45,205 nucleotides of DNA, from contig JBCCIM010000023.1 of assembly GCA_039111535.1 (NCBI GenBank), positions 1 to 45,205 on the forward strand, in the 5' to 3' direction. Below, one piece after another: positions 13,402 to 20,868 of the stretch (within the stretch, counting starts at the first letter, position 1; each line of letters begins with the position of its first letter). Position numbers and translations under genes: made by a program. Source of the DNA: Bacteroidota bacterium (GTDB lineage Bacteria; Bacteroidota; Rhodothermia; Rhodothermales; JAHQVL01). The notes beneath the pieces are model-generated. The model was not told the DNA's origin. It worked only from the letters and a program-made list of their open reading frames with translations, and did no database searches.

Positions 13402-14370
13402 ATGCGTTTGAACAAGCTACTATGTTTTGCACTTTCACTGCTTTTGATGCCGGGGCTGGTTTCTCAATTAGCCACCGCACAGGATGTAGTCTTTGATGAC
13501 ATGGAGCATGCAGATCCAGACAACAATGGCTGGTTTGCCTTTGGCAGTGACATTGGCGGTGGCGGGTATGCCATCGAAGACATGGACCTCCCTGCTGACA
13601 ACGGTGGCGCAGCTGCGCTTAGCGTTGGCTTTGGCGGTGCAGCCGGCTTCATTGGCGGGTTTGGACGTACCAACCCGGTGGACCTTAGCAATGTGGACCA
13701 TTTCAATTTCTGGATCAACCCGGCAGCCGACCAAAGCTATACGCTCGAAATCAACTTCCAGGATGATGACAACGGCGATGACGACATCCCCAACCCGTCT
13801 GCCGATGACGATGAATACCAGTTCAACTGCGTCGTTGGCCCTAACGGCCCTTGTGCTGTGAGTGGTGGTGGCTGGCAGTTGGTTGAAATCCCGTTTTCGG
13901 AGTTGTTTGATGACAATTCGTTTCATACCGGGGGCAACGCGGCCTTCGATCCAACGCCAACCTCTGCGGGCGGCAACGGGCAACTGGTCAACGTTGTGAT
14001 CGCAATTATTGGCACCGGTACGGATGCCAACTTCCTGACAGATTACTGGGTGTTTACCCAGGGTGCGCTGTCAACGGACATCGAAGAAGCCGGCATCCCA
14101 ACGGACTTCGCGCTCATGCAGAACTACCCCAACCCCTTCAATCCATCAACTGCCATCACGTTTAATATGCCACAGGCGGAAACGGTGAATCTCTCCGTGT
14201 TCAACCTCCTGGGCCAGCGTGTTGCTACGTTGATCGACGGGGCACAGCTGCAGTCCGGACAGCACACCGTTTCTTTTGATGCCACCAACCTGCCAACAGG
14301 CATGTACATCTACCGCCTAACCGCTGGCACCTCGTTTGCGCAAACGCGCCGCATGACGCTGGTGCGCTAA
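13402..14370 (+). CDS. Secreted protein with galactose-binding-like fold and T9SS sorting domain
   Basis: The 322-residue product has a clear signal peptide (LLCFALSLLLMPGLVSQLATAQ). Residues about 28-225 form an all-beta, Asp/Gly-rich domain starting VVFDDMEH and including the FNFWINP and WQLVEIPFSEL segments, which resemble CIA30/carbohydrate-binding beta-sandwich proteins. An acidic stretch (DDDNGDDD) could bind calcium. Residues about 236-322 are the NYPNPFNPST sorting domain. No catalytic motif is visible. Two LacI-like operators upstream and a strong terminator directly downstream suggest a single-gene, sugar-responsive transcript. A glycan-binding role is inference. Confidence 0.85.
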   Translation: MRLNKLLCFALSLLLMPGLVSQLATAQDVVFDDMEHADPDNNGWFAFGSDIGGGGYAIEDMDLPADNGGAAALSVGFGGAAGFIGGFGRTNPVDLSNVDHFNFWINPAADQSYTLEINFQDDDNGDDDIPNPSADDDEYQFNCVVGPNGPCAVSGGGWQLVEIPFSELFDDNSFHTGGNAAFDPTPTSAGGNGQLVNVVIAIIGTGTDANFLTDYWVFTQGALSTDIEEAGIPTDFALMQNYPNPFNPSTAITFNMPQAETVNLSVFNLLGQRVATLIDGAQLQSGQHTVSFDATNLPTGMYIYRLTAGTSFAQTRRMTLVR

Positions 14371-14430: not shown

Positions 14431-14682
14431 ATGAATGTCGATTCTCGAGCGCCAAATGCCGCTTGGTTTATTTTGGCGCTTTCGCCGCCAATCAACAGCC
14501 AGATCCCACAAACCGGCGTCTCCGATATACAGGCTGTCTCAAGATTAGTCCAGCAAAGGGGCCCACAGCATCGCAATACGGGCTGTTTTGACTGTATTTA
14601 AGGTGTGGCGCAATTTCTGCTTTCTCCTTTCCATAACAAGGGCGCACTTCTTGTTCATCCCCTCGCCAACCGTGACACTGCC

Positions 14683-15165
14683 ATGCAGAATGCTACTATA
14701 AAAGCGACGCTTACCCTTGCCCTCCTCTTTTTTACACAACCGCTAATTGCAGCTCCAATGCCGGATGACGACATCCAGCCGGGTGACTTGCTGTTCTTCT
14801 GGATCAGCGACAAAGGCCGGCACGTGGGCATTTACCTTGAAGACGGCAAATTCTTTCACGCCTCTACTTCAGAAGGCGTGACGATCAGCCGGCTCGATGC
14901 TGATTACTGGCGCTATCGCCTCATCTCCGTCCGCCGTGTAAATCATGACGTATCCCTGGATGCATTGAAGCGCGCCTTCAGGCAATACGACCCTGCAGCC
15001 TACAAGTACGGCGCCGTTGGCCCCAATCGATTCGACTGCTCGGGGCTCGTGCAACGCGTATTCAGAGAACACGGTGTTGACTTGCCCCGCACCACGCGCA
15101 CCCAATTGGGGGTTGGTCGGAAAGTGATGTCGGGCCGCGACTACCTGTTGCGGAACCGGCGATAA
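14683..15165 (+). CDS. NlpC/P60-type cysteine peptidase with circularly permuted domain order
   Basis: The 160-residue secreted protein has a signal peptide ending near LIAAPMPDDD. ATG at 14683 is used; a GTG at 14605 would place 26 residues before the signal. The usual NlpC/P60 order is DCSGLV (Cys) first, then PGDLLFF...HVGIYLG (His). Here the order is reversed: IQPGDLLFF (32-39), RHVGIYLEDGKFFHAS (His47, His59), ISRLDADYW and VRRV come first, then a linker, then YKYGAVGPNRFDCSGLVQRVF (Cys119; written as two pieces: YKYGAVGPNRF, DCSGLVQRVF) and LPRTTRTQ. All catalytic positions are present, so it may be an active peptidoglycan endopeptidase or amidase. The stop closely follows the point where a normal member would continue into PGD. 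Known permuted relatives (LRAT/YaeF-like) are much more diverged. Confidence 0.85.
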   Translation: MQNATIKATLTLALLFFTQPLIAAPMPDDDIQPGDLLFFWISDKGRHVGIYLEDGKFFHASTSEGVTISRLDADYWRYRLISVRRVNHDVSLDALKRAFRQYDPAAYKYGAVGPNRFDCSGLVQRVFREHGVDLPRTTRTQLGVGRKVMSGRDYLLRNRR

Positions 15166-15257: not shown

Positions 15258-17501
15258 GTGAATTTGCCGCACCTGCCTCCCAACACCATAGCACTCAGCG
15301 CATCCAGACTTATCCTAACAGGCTATTGCTGGATGTGCTGTTTTTCCCTGCTCCTGTGCATCAACCAATCAGCAGTGGCACAATCAGCGGCTGATTGGCT
15401 CATCGATAATTCCGCTTACCCGGCACGTATAACTACAGATGAATCTGCTGACAAAGTGGTCCTCTCAAACGGACTCATTGCCCGCACCTTTAAACTCGCA
15501 CCAAACGGTGCGACGATTGGGTTTGATAACCTGATTACCAGTGAATCCATCCTGCGGGGCGTAAAACCCGAAGCGGTAGTCCTGATCGACAGCGTGCGGT
15601 ATGCCATTGGCGGACTTACCGGACAACCCAACTATGCTTACCTTCAGCCTGGTTGGATTGACACGATGGTATCAGATTCCACTGCATTTCAATTTGTAGG
15701 CTATGAGACATGGTCCATCGAAGCGCCATTTGGCTGGAAGAGGGTCAGGCATCATGACGAAGATCTTGCGTGGCCGCCCAAAGGTGTGGCGCTGCGTATG
15801 GACTATCAACCGCCAGCGCACGCAACTTGGCTGGAAGGGGTCACTGTTTCTGTGCACTACGCGCTATATGACGGCATCCCGGCCTACAGTAAGTGGATCA
15901 CGGTTCAGAACAACGCAGATGCGACAATCAACCTCGACGCGTTTACGAGCGAAATACTGGCCGCTGTGGAGCCGGCATCTTGGGTTGAAACGCGCGGCGT
16001 GCCCATGCCGACGCCCAACCTGCACGTAGAAACCGATTACGCCTTTGGTGGCATGCGTCCGGAGAATGCCAACCGGCTGTCTGTGCATTGGGTTAAAGAT
16101 CCAGACTACGACACCCAGGTAAACTACCTCCGTACCACTCCTGCCCTGTTAGAAGTGCGGCCGACATACGGCCCCAATCAAACCATTAACGCAGGGAGTA
16201 CCTTCACCTCTTTCAGGGCATATATACTCGTTTATGATACTACAGAAAGAGAACGCAAAGGCCTGGCAAAGCGCAAATTCTACAGGACCATTGCCCCGTG
16301 GGTTACCGAAAACCCGATTATGATGCATGTACGTTTTGCAGATTGGGAAAGCGTAAAGAAGGCCATTGACCAGGCAGCTGAAGTTGGATTCGAAATGGTG
16401 ATTCTGACGTTTGGCAGCGGGTTCGACATCGAAAACCAGGACCCGGCCTATCGGGCAGAAATGAAACGTTACGCGAGCTATGCCCAATCCAAAGGCGTGG
16501 AACTGGGTGGGTATTCGCTGTTATCGAGCCGGCGTATTGAACCAGATTCAGATAACACGGTCAATCCGGATACCGGCGAACCCGGCGGCCAAACCCATGG
16601 CTTCAGCCCGGCGCTCGCGAGCCCCTGGGGACAAGCATACTTCGACAACCTGTATGACTTTTACAGCACCTCCGGCTTCACCCTCCTCGAACACGACGGC
16701 TCTTACCCGGGTGACCTCGATGCAGCCGCCCGCCCTCCCCTGCAAAAGGGCGTACACGACTCGCGTTGGGTGCAGTGGCAGATCATTGCTGATTTCTACA
16801 AGTGGTGCCGGGCGCAGGGTATTTACCTGAATGTGCCCGACTGGTACTTCCTCGTCGGCTCAACCAAAGTGGCAATGGGCTATCGGGAAACAAACTGGTC
16901 CCTCCCCCGCATCCAGCAGGTGATTCACGCGCGACAGAATATCTACGATGGGACATGGGACAAAACTCCTTCGATGGGCTGGATGTTTGTCCCGCTCACA
17001 GAGTACCACGGCGGCGGCGAGGCTGCTACGATTGAGCCGCTGGACACGCACCTGTCCCATTATGAGCAAATGTTAGCCAACAACATGGGCGCCGGCGTCC
17101 AGGCCGCCTACCGCGGCCCGCGCCTGTACGACACCCCGCGTACCAAAGCGATGGTAATGAAATGGGTGAACTGGTACAAACAGTACCGTGACATCCTCGA
17201 AAGTGATCTCATCCACGGCCGCCGCGCAGATGGGCGGGATATCGATTGGATGCTGCACGTAAATCCCTTTCTCGAAGAAAAAGGGATGCTCGTTGTATTT
17301 AACCCACTCAAAGAAGAAGTCAGCCGCACGCTAAGGGTCCCGCTGTATTATACAGGCTTAACAGACAGCGCTGTTGTTGGGCACGCAGGTACAAGTCCAT
17401 CGGTATTACCCCTGGCGCGCGACTATTCGATTGAACTAGAAGTGACTGTACCTGCACAGGGCATGAGCTGGTACGTGATCAAAGCCCCTTCCGATAACTG
17501 A
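15258..17501 (+). CDS. Secreted TIM-barrel glycosidase candidate, GH36/GH-D-like architecture
   Basis: The 747-residue product starts at GTG 15258 (an in-frame TAG is at 15252) and has a signal segment (CWMCCFSLLLCINQSAVAQ). Residues about 45-335 look like a beta-supersandwich (NGLIARTF near its start), about 345-660 like a TIM barrel, and 665-747 like a C-terminal beta domain. This layout is that of alpha-galactosidase-type GH36 and relatives. The strand ending FTLLEHDGSYPGD places Asp480 where the GH-D nucleophile is expected; Glu478 is nearby. DWYF, NWSLPR and a Trp-rich MVMKWVNWYKQYR are further conserved-looking parts. The family call is weak, and the substrate is unknown. It lies 92 bp after the NlpC/P60 gene. 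No sorting domain is present, so it is probably periplasmic. Confidence 0.7.
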   Translation: MNLPHLPPNTIALSASRLILTGYCWMCCFSLLLCINQSAVAQSAADWLIDNSAYPARITTDESADKVVLSNGLIARTFKLAPNGATIGFDNLITSESILRGVKPEAVVLIDSVRYAIGGLTGQPNYAYLQPGWIDTMVSDSTAFQFVGYETWSIEAPFGWKRVRHHDEDLAWPPKGVALRMDYQPPAHATWLEGVTVSVHYALYDGIPAYSKWITVQNNADATINLDAFTSEILAAVEPASWVETRGVPMPTPNLHVETDYAFGGMRPENANRLSVHWVKDPDYDTQVNYLRTTPALLEVRPTYGPNQTINAGSTFTSFRAYILVYDTTERERKGLAKRKFYRTIAPWVTENPIMMHVRFADWESVKKAIDQAAEVGFEMVILTFGSGFDIENQDPAYRAEMKRYASYAQSKGVELGGYSLLSSRRIEPDSDNTVNPDTGEPGGQTHGFSPALASPWGQAYFDNLYDFYSTSGFTLLEHDGSYPGDLDAAARPPLQKGVHDSRWVQWQIIADFYKWCRAQGIYLNVPDWYFLVGSTKVAMGYRETNWSLPRIQQVIHARQNIYDGTWDKTPSMGWMFVPLTEYHGGGEAATIEPLDTHLSHYEQMLANNMGAGVQAAYRGPRLYDTPRTKAMVMKWVNWYKQYRDILESDLIHGRRADGRDIDWMLHVNPFLEEKGMLVVFNPLKEEVSRTLRVPLYYTGLTDSAVVGHAGTSPSVLPLARDYSIELEVTVPAQGMSWYVIKAPSDN

Positions 17502-17506
17502 TCTGC

Positions 17507-18346
17507 TTACAAACTTTCGCGCACCACATCGAAGATGCTAACTACCCCATTAAACGCAGTAAATACACCCAGGCCGCCTTCAATATTCGATGGAGGCTCA
17601 GTAAGATCGCGTGAGTCCTGTTCGCGGTTTTCATACAGGTCAACGTACTCCTGGTTGATCTGGTATACCGTCACGTAATGGGGCCCTAACCAACTCAACG
17701 TAACCGGAATGATGTCGTGGAAATCTGCCGTAGTAGGTTCTGAAATGATTTCAAAATCTCCAATAAAATCGCGCACAAAATCAGGTAGGATAAAGTCCGG
17801 GTCCTCCGGGTCGTCGCTGGTGACAACCACAAAATGATAGTTCGCTGCCGGGTTATCCCAGGTCACAGTGAAGAACTCACTCAGGCTATCAAAATTGCCG
17901 CCACCACCGCCAAACCCTATGCCGGCAAAATTCGGTACGGGCATTTCACTACTGGGTAACTGGACGTTTTGCGGTGGTCCAGGTACCGTCGTTGTAGCCG
18001 TGATGGTTGTGCCATTGTAGTCGATGGACAAAAGAAACGTATCCCCTGTTTCGATTGTCAGATCCTCCCCATCGTAGGCATAAAATCCATCTGCACCGGA
18101 TGCCGTGAGCGGGTAGCTTGTGCCGGCTTTCATCAGCGTAACCGATGCGTCATTTACCGGTACACTGCTTGAATCTGCACTACCAAAAGGAATGGCGCGT
18201 TTCAGACGTACATCGTTGACTGGTTCGCCGGCAAAAAGGAAGGCTTCTACAACAAGCAAATCTTCCGCTGTATCAGGCGCGGTACTGTCGCACCCAATTG
18301 CCACCAATACAAACAGGCTAATACACAAGACACGAAGTGTTTTCAT
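17507..18346 (-). CDS. DUF4249-type lipoprotein paired with TonB receptor
   Basis: The 279-residue lipoprotein has a signal ending LVAIGCD (lipobox Cys), then a beta-rich body with VEAFLFAGEPVNDVRLKRA and the domain of DUF4249 proteins (WDNPAANYHFVV, VYQINQEYVDLYE). ATG 18346 gives a normal lipoprotein signal. An ATG at 18391 overlaps the receptor stop (TGATG), but it would add a polar 15-residue leader. Family members sit next to TonB receptors and are thought to be surface accessory lipoproteins, by analogy to SusD. It is downstream of and probably coupled to the receptor at 18391-20868. It converges with the glycosidase across a 5-bp gap. Confidence 0.8.
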   Translation of the reverse strand: MKTLRVLCISLFVLVAIGCDSTAPDTAEDLLVVEAFLFAGEPVNDVRLKRAIPFGSADSSSVPVNDASVTLMKAGTSYPLTASGADGFYAYDGEDLTIETGDTFLLSIDYNGTTITATTTVPGPPQNVQLPSSEMPVPNFAGIGFGGGGGNFDSLSEFFTVTWDNPAANYHFVVVTSDDPEDPDFILPDFVRDFIGDFEIISEPTTADFHDIIPVTLSWLGPHYVTVYQINQEYVDLYENREQDSRDLTEPPSNIEGGLGVFTAFNGVVSIFDVVRESL

Positions 18347-18390
18347 CGGTATAGAAATTTTGGATGAACGGTTTGCACGATTGTAAGCCA

Positions 18391-20868
18391 TCAAAAATCG
18401 ACACGAAAAGAGAGGTTGGGTGTAAACCCGAGGAATCCGACATCGGTGACTGTTACAGGAGTCTGCGACAAATCAAATTCTTTGTACCAGGTATTGCTCT
18501 GGTTGTACAGGTTGAAAATCGAAAACCCAAGCTTGCCTTTGGCTGCTTCGCCTACCGGAAACAGGTAGTGCACAGCCAGGTCCAGCCGATGGTAGGCCGG
18601 CAGCCGGCGATCGTTTTTCCCACTCACATGGATGTAACTCTGCACCGAGCCATCTACCAATTCGATGTCATAAAATGACTCGGGCGCGGTGTAAGGTTTA
18701 CCGGAAGCATAGGTCCAGGTCATCGAACCAAGCCATTGTTCGTTAATCTCAAAACTGTTCACCAGTTTGAGTTCGTGCTCCTGGTCTTGCAAGGCGGGAA
18801 AAGGCGCGCCGTTGTTCAGGTCAGCAAAGGTGTGCTCCACTTCAGCAAGCGTATAGCTTAACCAGCCGGTAAACCTTCCGGTTTTCTTTTGAATGAGAAA
18901 TTCCATCCCGCGCGCAATGCCGTCCCCGGTAAAGAACAACTCATCAGCGCTAATCTCGCGTATGCTGGGTCGGAATCGCAAGGAAAACTCGGTGAGTCCG
19001 GATAGGTCTTTGTAGTAGGCTTCGACATCAAACAGCCAGTTTGCTGCATCGTAGCTCAGGCCGGCGACATAGTGGGTTGCGCCCTGCACACCTACGTCCT
19101 CTCCATCAGCGAGTAGCCAAAAATCACGGGCACCCTCCGTCACGTTCTCATTTACTACACGCGCCACAAACTGGTTATAATCACCATACGCTGCTTTGAG
19201 ATGCAGCCGGGGTGTCAAATTGAACTTCATCGCAAGACGCGGCTCCAGGTATGTTTGATCTACCTGATCGTAGTGGGCCATGCGCAAACCGGGCGTTACC
19301 GTGAGACCGGGGAATACGCGCCAGGTATCTTGCACATAGGCACTGAACTGACGTCCCAGCTGGTCGCGTGATAATACGCCGAGCGTGTCATCCCGGACGA
19401 AGTTGTAGGTCACATCTGAAGCAGTGTACTGCGCGCCAAATTCAACGTTGTGGTTTTGCGAAAGGCGCCACTCGTTTTCGAGCTTCAAGGTCAGGTCTTG
19501 CACGTCGTTGTTTTCGACTGTGCTAAACGTGTTAGCAAAGAGTACTGTATCAGCATCTGCATCACGCCGTTCGACAAACCCGTTCCGGTCATAATCACTG
19601 AAGTAGTTGGAGTAAGCAACCAGCGCGTTGGTGTAAAAGCGCGGCGTCCATTGCCGGGACCACTTGGTGCTTACGCCAATGTTGCCCCAGTCTGTGAAAT
19701 CAGCCAGTTCACTATCGATACTGACGTTGGCTTCCGCACCGAAATTGCCGGCTCCCGGAATCAGTTCACGTGACTTATCGAGATGGTCTTTTCCGTTATA
19801 AAAACTTAGCGCCAATACATCTTTCCGGCTCGGTCGGTACGTGAGGCGCGCGTTTACATCGTAGAAATAGAAATTGGGTTCTACCGCGGCTGACTGTTGC
19901 CCGAAAGGTCCGTTGCCGCCCGTCTGATCGACATTCAGGTCCTCACCAGTTACGGTCTCATAGATACTGCTGTAGACTCCTGATTCCAGGATATCGGTAT
20001 ACGACCTGCGCGCTGACAACAGCAAGCTACTTTTTGCCCCAATCGGGGCCTCGATGGTAGCATTGGCACTCAAGAGGTTTACACTGGCGTGGCCGGCAAA
20101 CACATTGGCCCCGGTACGCCCCGTAAGATCAACCACGCTGGACGTGCGACCGCCGTATTTTGCCGGATACCCCCCTTTGAAGACCTGCACGTCTTTGATC
20201 GCATCAGCGTTAAAGGCACTGAAGAAACCATAAAAGTGATCCACGTGGTAGACCGTCATGCCATCCAGTAAGACCAGATTTTGATCCGGTGTCCCACCGC
20301 GGACGAACAATCCGGCTGAACCTTCGTTCGTACCGCTGATCCCCGGCATGAGCTGCAAAGAGCGGAAGATATCTACATCGCCGGCCGTTGGCAACACAGC
20401 GAGGTCTTTAGGTGAAACGGTGAGTTGGCTCACATTTTCAGCGGTTTTCATCATCTGGTACCGCTCTGCTGTAACTACAACCTCTTCTTCAAAGGACGCC
20501 GTCACCGGCTCCAATAATACATCAAGGGGTCTATTCAGCGTGCGCACGTCAATTTTGAACTCGGCAGGGCTGTATCCCAGGTATCTGAATCCGATAACAA
20601 CACTGTCTTCGGGTACGCCCAGCAAGACAAAAAAGCCGTCCACATTGGTGGCAGCACCCAAAGCGGTGCCAACAACAAGAACGCTTGCATTGGGTAGCGT
20701 CTCTCCCGTATTTGCATCACGTACAATGCCGGAGACGGTCTTCTGTCCGTAAGCTTCAGATACCAGCCCCCAAGGGCCTAACCCCAAAAATATAACCATG
20801 GCTGCCAGGTACAAACCTCTGTTCGTTGCCGGCAACACTTTTCGTTTAAACATCAAATGAACCCTCAT
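18391..20868 (-). CDS. TonB-dependent outer membrane receptor with carboxypeptidase-like N-terminal domain
   Basis: The 825-residue receptor has a signal peptide (LYLAAMVIFLGLGPWGLVSE region), a CarboxypepD_reg-like domain at about 43-122 (VSGIVRDANTGETLPNASV), a TonB-box-like VVVTAERY, a plug at about 130-250 (LFVRGGTPDQNLVLLDGM, GGYPAKYGGR) and a 22-strand-type barrel ending LSFRVDF, with the C-terminal Phe needed for Bam-dependent insertion. It should import a large ligand across the outer membrane using TonB energy; the ligand is not evident. ATG 20868 or 20853 could start it. The DUF4249 lipoprotein follows. The 256-bp region upstream is shared with the divergent histidine kinase and contains a GTAAC-N4-GTAAA box. 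Confidence 0.9.
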   Translation of the reverse strand: MRVHLMFKRKVLPATNRGLYLAAMVIFLGLGPWGLVSEAYGQKTVSGIVRDANTGETLPNASVLVVGTALGAATNVDGFFVLLGVPEDSVVIGFRYLGYSPAEFKIDVRTLNRPLDVLLEPVTASFEEEVVVTAERYQMMKTAENVSQLTVSPKDLAVLPTAGDVDIFRSLQLMPGISGTNEGSAGLFVRGGTPDQNLVLLDGMTVYHVDHFYGFFSAFNADAIKDVQVFKGGYPAKYGGRTSSVVDLTGRTGANVFAGHASVNLLSANATIEAPIGAKSSLLLSARRSYTDILESGVYSSIYETVTGEDLNVDQTGGNGPFGQQSAAVEPNFYFYDVNARLTYRPSRKDVLALSFYNGKDHLDKSRELIPGAGNFGAEANVSIDSELADFTDWGNIGVSTKWSRQWTPRFYTNALVAYSNYFSDYDRNGFVERRDADADTVLFANTFSTVENNDVQDLTLKLENEWRLSQNHNVEFGAQYTASDVTYNFVRDDTLGVLSRDQLGRQFSAYVQDTWRVFPGLTVTPGLRMAHYDQVDQTYLEPRLAMKFNLTPRLHLKAAYGDYNQFVARVVNENVTEGARDFWLLADGEDVGVQGATHYVAGLSYDAANWLFDVEAYYKDLSGLTEFSLRFRPSIREISADELFFTGDGIARGMEFLIQKKTGRFTGWLSYTLAEVEHTFADLNNGAPFPALQDQEHELKLVNSFEINEQWLGSMTWTYASGKPYTAPESFYDIELVDGSVQSYIHVSGKNDRRLPAYHRLDLAVHYLFPVGEAAKGKLGFSIFNLYNQSNTWYKEFDLSQTPVTVTDVGFLGFTPNLSFRVDF

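Follow-up and report, generated by a model that had tools for sequence, protein, structure and literature searches.

The window analysed here, a stretch of 45,205 nucleotides from contig JBCCIM010000023.1 of a Bacteroidota bacterium (order Rhodothermales; assembly GCA_039111535.1), contains at 14683-15165 on the forward strand an open reading frame of 160 amino acids plus stop, whose translation matches the protein given in the preliminary description of this DNA. The parts of the gene are collected in Table 1. Residues 1 to ~24 of the translated sequence resemble a Sec signal and contain no lipobox, whereas a lipobox can be read in the sequences of the canonical NlpC/P60 (P60) proteins of genomes G000 and G002. 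A GTG at 14605, in frame with the gene, is an alternative start. About 80 bases 5' of the start codon, the stretch GTGTGGC.C.ATTTCTGC (window 14602-14626) is also kept upstream of the orthologue described below (L134), unlike the other upstream DNA, which is not conserved between the two genera; it could represent a regulatory site or an extended N-terminus beginning at this GTG. Just upstream (13402-14370, forward strand) lies the gene for a protein with a Por_Secre_tail sorting domain of type IX secretion, regions similar to which are present in three other open reading frames of the window. The gene directly downstream (15258-17501, forward strand) encodes an exported protein of 747 amino acids with no Pfam match at E 0.001, and beyond it, on the reverse strand (17507-20868), a DUF4249 protein stands beside a TonB-dependent receptor with a CarboxypepD_reg domain, apparently as an outer-membrane pair.

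Table 1. Features of the permuted NlpC/P60 gene, in window coordinates.
Feature	Position	Strand	Basis
Permuted NlpC/P60 coding sequence	14683..15165	+	Pfam half-matches; orthologue P0002 in L002/L134; pS/pN
Signal peptide, ~residues 1-24, without lipobox Cys	14683..14754	+	Sequence; low pLDDT; residues 1-26 identical at 8/26 positions in orthologue
First segment, beta/His half, residues 30-86, MepS/Spr-like	14770..14940	+	Pfam 46-105 at residues 26-85; strands between 36 and 85
His47, predicted to act as catalytic base (YkfC His291)	14821..14823	+	Invariant in P60 His-half alignment; YkfC spacing (PMC2954226)
His59, predicted third member of the triad (YkfC His303)	14857..14859	+	Invariant in P60 His-half alignment; PMC2954226, PMC3142127
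New junction, short linker and helix alpha1, residues 87-105 (helix 92-102)	14941..14997	+	pLDDT ~90-94
Second segment, Cys-helix half, residues 106-149	14998..15129	+	Pfam 3-45, E 3.5e-9; helices 119-128 and 138-141, strand 146-150
Cys119, predicted catalytic nucleophile	15037..15039	+	D118 and C119 invariant in P60 Cys-half alignment
C-terminal tail SGRDYLLRNRR and stop	15130..15165	+	Residues 143-160 identical at 11/18 positions in orthologue; helix 151-157

The Pfam NLPC_P60 profile (PF00877) matches the protein in two stretches with a total of 96.6 bits (E 9.9e-28), and the orthologue with 92.6 bits, against a cut-off of 23 bits. The two stretches occur in the genome in the order profile 46-105 (E 4.7e-15) and then profile 3-45; the His half thus precedes the Cys half, the reverse of the canonical order of PF00877. 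This bears out the reversed arrangement reported in the preliminary description, where His47, His59 and Cys119 were also correctly numbered. A custom P60 HMM, trained on canonical P60s from this order and its class, matches with model positions 64-126 at residues 26-88 and then with positions 8-66 at residues 93-150. When the mature sequence was rotated in silico to start near residue 91, it gave one continuous match to model positions 9-126 with 124.8 bits. The half-matches and the result of the rotation indicate that the domain is complete and present in a single copy and that its order alone differs; the halves jointly cover the P60 domain once, with neither loss nor duplication. The cut lies just before strand beta1 (IQPGDLLFF), and the tail and stop sit where the canonical chain enters PGD/beta1. 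The stop had been described as following the second half at the point where the first would normally continue, and it is found at the identical place in a second genus.

Judged by its sequence, the protein is a P60 nearest to MepS/Spr and not to C92/YiiX, in line with its earlier separation from the diverged permuted relatives. MepS/Spr (C40; PDB 2k1g, 7v6s, 8xud) is the best sequence match in both the PDB (E 1.1e-12 for the His half) and NCBIfam, where the top model, the MepS equivalog NF008096, matches in two stretches (94.6 bits); the scores obtained with it, 94.6 and 86.9 bits, lie below its curated cut-off of 186. The two proteins share the Cys-His-His triad, the HVGIY and HAST motifs and a YW motif close to where the His half ends; they differ in the order of the halves and in the loop of the Cys half, which is shorter in the permuted protein. 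Compared with canonical P60s from its own order, the His half is up to 58% identical.

The first reading of this gene held that both halves are nearly canonical. This holds for the His half, whose resemblance to MepS/Spr is clear; the Cys half, in contrast, stands as far from MepS/Spr relatives as from other P60s: its mean scores are 91 against non-MepS P60s and 89 against MepS-like proteins, it falls below every MepS-like member in a half-against-half regression, and its loop, one residue shorter, has the generic P60 length. Such features would also fit a chimera, in which recombination, and not the rotation of one gene, joined a MepS-like His half to a Cys half from another P60 subfamily. 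We consider this origin unlikely, as trees of the separate halves did not support it. An AU test on the Cys-half tree did not reject a common parent with the MepS-like proteins (p 0.76), and the tree constrained in this way had the higher likelihood. While the test does not prove a single MepS-like parent, this non-rejection makes faster change of the Cys half after the permutation the simpler reading of the same data.

The residues expected around the active site can be compared with those of YkfC, in which Tyr226, Asp237, Arg255 and Ser257 line the S2-S1 cavity around Cys238, His291 and His303, and Ser239 also binds substrate (PMC2954226). Their equivalents in the permuted protein are Y107 (Tyr226), D118 (Asp237), C119 (Cys238), S120 (Ser239), R136 (Arg255), T138 (Ser257), H47 (His291) and H59 (His303), with the spacing of YkfC: 12 residues from Tyr to Cys, 17 from Cys to Arg and 12 from His to His. 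At the level of sequence, the four catalytic residues and the residues of YkfC that bind gamma-D-Glu are retained, among the latter the S1 residues Y107, D118, S120 and T138, which maintains a small residue at position 257; the S1 pocket is therefore predicted to be of the cell-wall type. Y107, C119, H47 and H59 are present in both orthologues, the columns of C119, H47 and H59 are invariant (alignments A5 and A6), and positions 118-120, 47 and 59 vary little or not at all among P60 relatives.

Structures were predicted with AlphaFold2 from two separate alignments, each deep over one half; a joint MAFFT alignment set Cys-half fragments on the His half. One row, from a plasmid record, was left out of the prediction alignment. 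The model with its depth on the Cys half (pLDDT 84.3, pTM 0.74) has five strands, a helix at 92-102, the Cys helix at 119-128, a strand at 146-150 and a short tail helix. The strands and main helices recur in the second model, with its depth on the His half (pLDDT 71.5; 41-74 in the Cys half). Structural comparison with VIA-align placed the permuted enzymes first, aligned end to end: YiiX (2if6; Z 13.5, 123 residues, 2.3 Å, 20% identity), followed by BcPPNE (3kw0; Z 12.2, 122 residues) and, lower, by HRASLS/PLAAT proteins (Z ~8). Canonical P60s, MepS included, aligned over 60-78 residues, mostly one half at a time. Foldseek ranked MepS first, but over ~60 columns only (44-48% identity). The prediction supports a model in which both halves come together again as a single papain-like domain, with a P60 sequence following the path of the YiiX chain. 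The absence of such a fold had been named as grounds for abandoning the idea of a permuted P60; in the AlphaFold model the fold is present. The profiles, the orthologue and the predicted structure, which aligns end to end with permuted papain-like enzymes, together uphold the proposal of a circular permutation of a near-canonical P60.

The resemblance to YiiX raises the question of whether a genuinely permuted protein might now be directed at lipids, like YiiX, LRAT and Tox-Act1, as an envelope amidase or phospholipase. Its chain topology is that of YiiX and BcPPNE, with the beta/His half first and the Cys helix last, near the C-terminus, and the proteins of the YaeF/YiiX group (Peptidase_C92; 2if6, 3kw0) can be aligned from end to end; the Peptidase_C92 profile (PF05708) gives a weak match in a single stretch, with 23.4-23.9 bits; and published work links permutation with lipid substrates and an S1 pocket of hydrophobic character (PMC3142127, PMC12994826). 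The C92 score is, however, under the cut-off of 27 bits, and identity to the YaeF/YiiX proteins is 16-20%, which leaves the protein, through its His half, far nearer to canonical P60s than to YiiX. A hydrophobic S1 pocket is described for YiiX and BcPPNE, with Glu as the third member of the triad (PMC3142127), whereas the permuted protein has His59, at the position and spacing of a P60, and keeps the polar S1 residues of P60s by sequence, including all of the residues with which canonical P60s bind gamma-D-Glu (PMC2954226). The LRAT and HRASLS (PLAAT) acyltransferases and phospholipases share the permuted papain-like topology but are lipid enzymes with 13-18% identity to the permuted protein (PMC3142127). 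Activity on lipids thus appears improbable, and peptidoglycan the better candidate substrate.

The orthologue is encoded on contig JAHQVL010000312.1 of Rhodothermaceae bacterium MAG.022 (genome G002), which belongs to the same family but to another genus. It is 66-68% identical over the whole length and has the same order of halves and the same end. Similarity between the neighbouring open reading frames is limited to one neighbour, whose matches are scattered across the whole window, so that the gene context differs between the two genera. Over the 160 codons compared, pS is 0.835 (saturated) and pN 0.227, with 48, 29 and 103 differences at the first, second and third codon positions. By part, pN rises from 0.096 in the His half, the most constrained, through 0.204 in the Cys half, 0.289 in the tail and 0.353 in the junction to 0.428 in the signal peptide; the junction, with 9 of 19 residues identical, is the least conserved part of the mature protein. 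The permuted protein is thus conserved under purifying selection in two genera. The permutation had been called recent or well conserved: conservation is confirmed, while 'recent' needs care, as the event is older than the split of the two genera.

Domains of the P60 family that lack the catalytic Cys do exist, among them the degenerate repeats in L122-L124 and L126 described below, and none of the genes beside the permuted one is a conserved partner, so an inactive P60-derived domain, for instance a peptidoglycan-binding or regulatory protein, has to be weighed. The strong purifying selection, and the retention in both orthologues of the Cys, both His, the Tyr and the Asp-Arg pair, make the loss of activity quite improbable. 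An artefact of assembly or sequencing, or the decaying fragment of a rearranged canonical gene, might be suspected in a draft genome of 355 contigs, but can be set aside with near certainty because the same structure occurs in another genus, in another gene context and with saturated synonymous sites, and because the frame is intact, a signal peptide is present and the source genome carries a separate canonical P60.

Both carrier genomes hold a canonical P60 besides the permuted one; a third genome of the family (98% complete) has a canonical P60 and lacks the permuted protein. A search of genomes for proteins with the same order, proposed at the outset, used as queries the full-length protein, the profile made from it or the Cys half alone, in part with strict thresholds. 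In ~1,970 genome searches, some of them of the same genomes, the orthologue was the sole further protein with the permuted order. No other permuted P60 was found among relatives or in samples of the class and phylum, nor in samples of the phyla of L048 (Bacillota), L035 (Kangiella), L034 (Acidobacteria) and L036 (Yinghuangia), the last three searched without a positive control; apart from the orthologue, phages, plasmids, genome_contigs and IMG/VR yielded canonical P60s alone. These searches are samples, which leave absence unproven, and more distant cases may exist. One record encountered, NZ_AP026896.1 (L031), is listed as an Aeromonas caviae plasmid, and its size of 4.94 Mb, with only 18 annotated features, suggests that it is a mislabelled chromosome.

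Matches over residues 29-148 in Bacillota proteins were considered as permuted P60s and rejected, being tandem P60 repeats. In these proteins (L122, L123, L124 and L126) the query aligns at 35-42% identity across a His half and the Cys half that follows it, but they differ from the permuted protein in consisting of whole repeats, each unpermuted and in canonical order. L122 and L124 have three repeats, L123 and L126 two, and only one repeat in each has the catalytic Cys, the remaining ones reading FDSSG, FDASG, FDTTG or FDTAG; such degenerate repeats could by now serve in binding, or else a half of one repeat may pair with a half of another. The tandem proteins contain natural His1-Cys2 junctions with a similar linker, and thus show that a His half directly before a Cys half occurs in nature. 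The classical route to a permutation is duplication followed by loss of the outer halves (PMC3320104). No tandem P60 intermediate or leftover half was found in the lineage of the permuted gene, and when the flanks in the two genomes were searched with profiles in all six frames, neither a frameshift nor leftover halves appeared near the gene.

Taken together, these results suggest that the gene most probably encodes a peptidoglycan-cleaving cysteine endopeptidase, secreted or periplasmic, of the MepS/Spr type of NlpC/P60, that has been circularly permuted; its activity and origin are what we infer from the comparisons above. The permutation would lie between strands beta1' and beta1 of a MepS/Spr-type P60, so that the chain would begin with beta1, run through the sheet with His47 and His59, cross a short new linker into helix alpha1, and close with the helix that carries Cys119, followed by a strand and the tail. 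Cys119, which His47 would activate and His59 would hold, may cleave a peptide bond in stem peptides or cross-links, like other P60s. The gene may have arisen when a P60 gene was duplicated and the copies were fused (Cys1-His1-Cys2-His2), with loss of the outer halves. We somewhat favor the further view that a cell-wall P60 was permuted independently, at a cut site close to that of the YiiX/LRAT group, and kept its specificity for peptidoglycan.

In the NlpC/P60 superfamily, canonical members cut peptidoglycan and permuted members act on lipids, a preference that has been suggested to stem from the permutation (PMC3142127; PMC12994826); a paper of 2026 holds that the permutation creates a hydrophobic pocket that gives lipid specificity (PMC12994826). 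In the open-access literature permuted NlpC/P60 folds are already known, but as diverged, lipid-associated families, too diverged to separate cause from effect. The permutation described here is young enough for both halves to remain recognizable as P60 by sequence, and a permuted protein with the sequence and pocket residues of a cell-wall P60 offers a natural test of whether permutation leads to lipid specificity. As the pocket residues are P60-like and a canonical P60 of the same organism is available for comparison, one activity assay would separate topology from the choice of substrate. If specificity for peptidoglycan has indeed been kept, permutation alone would not be what makes the known permuted enzymes specific for lipids.
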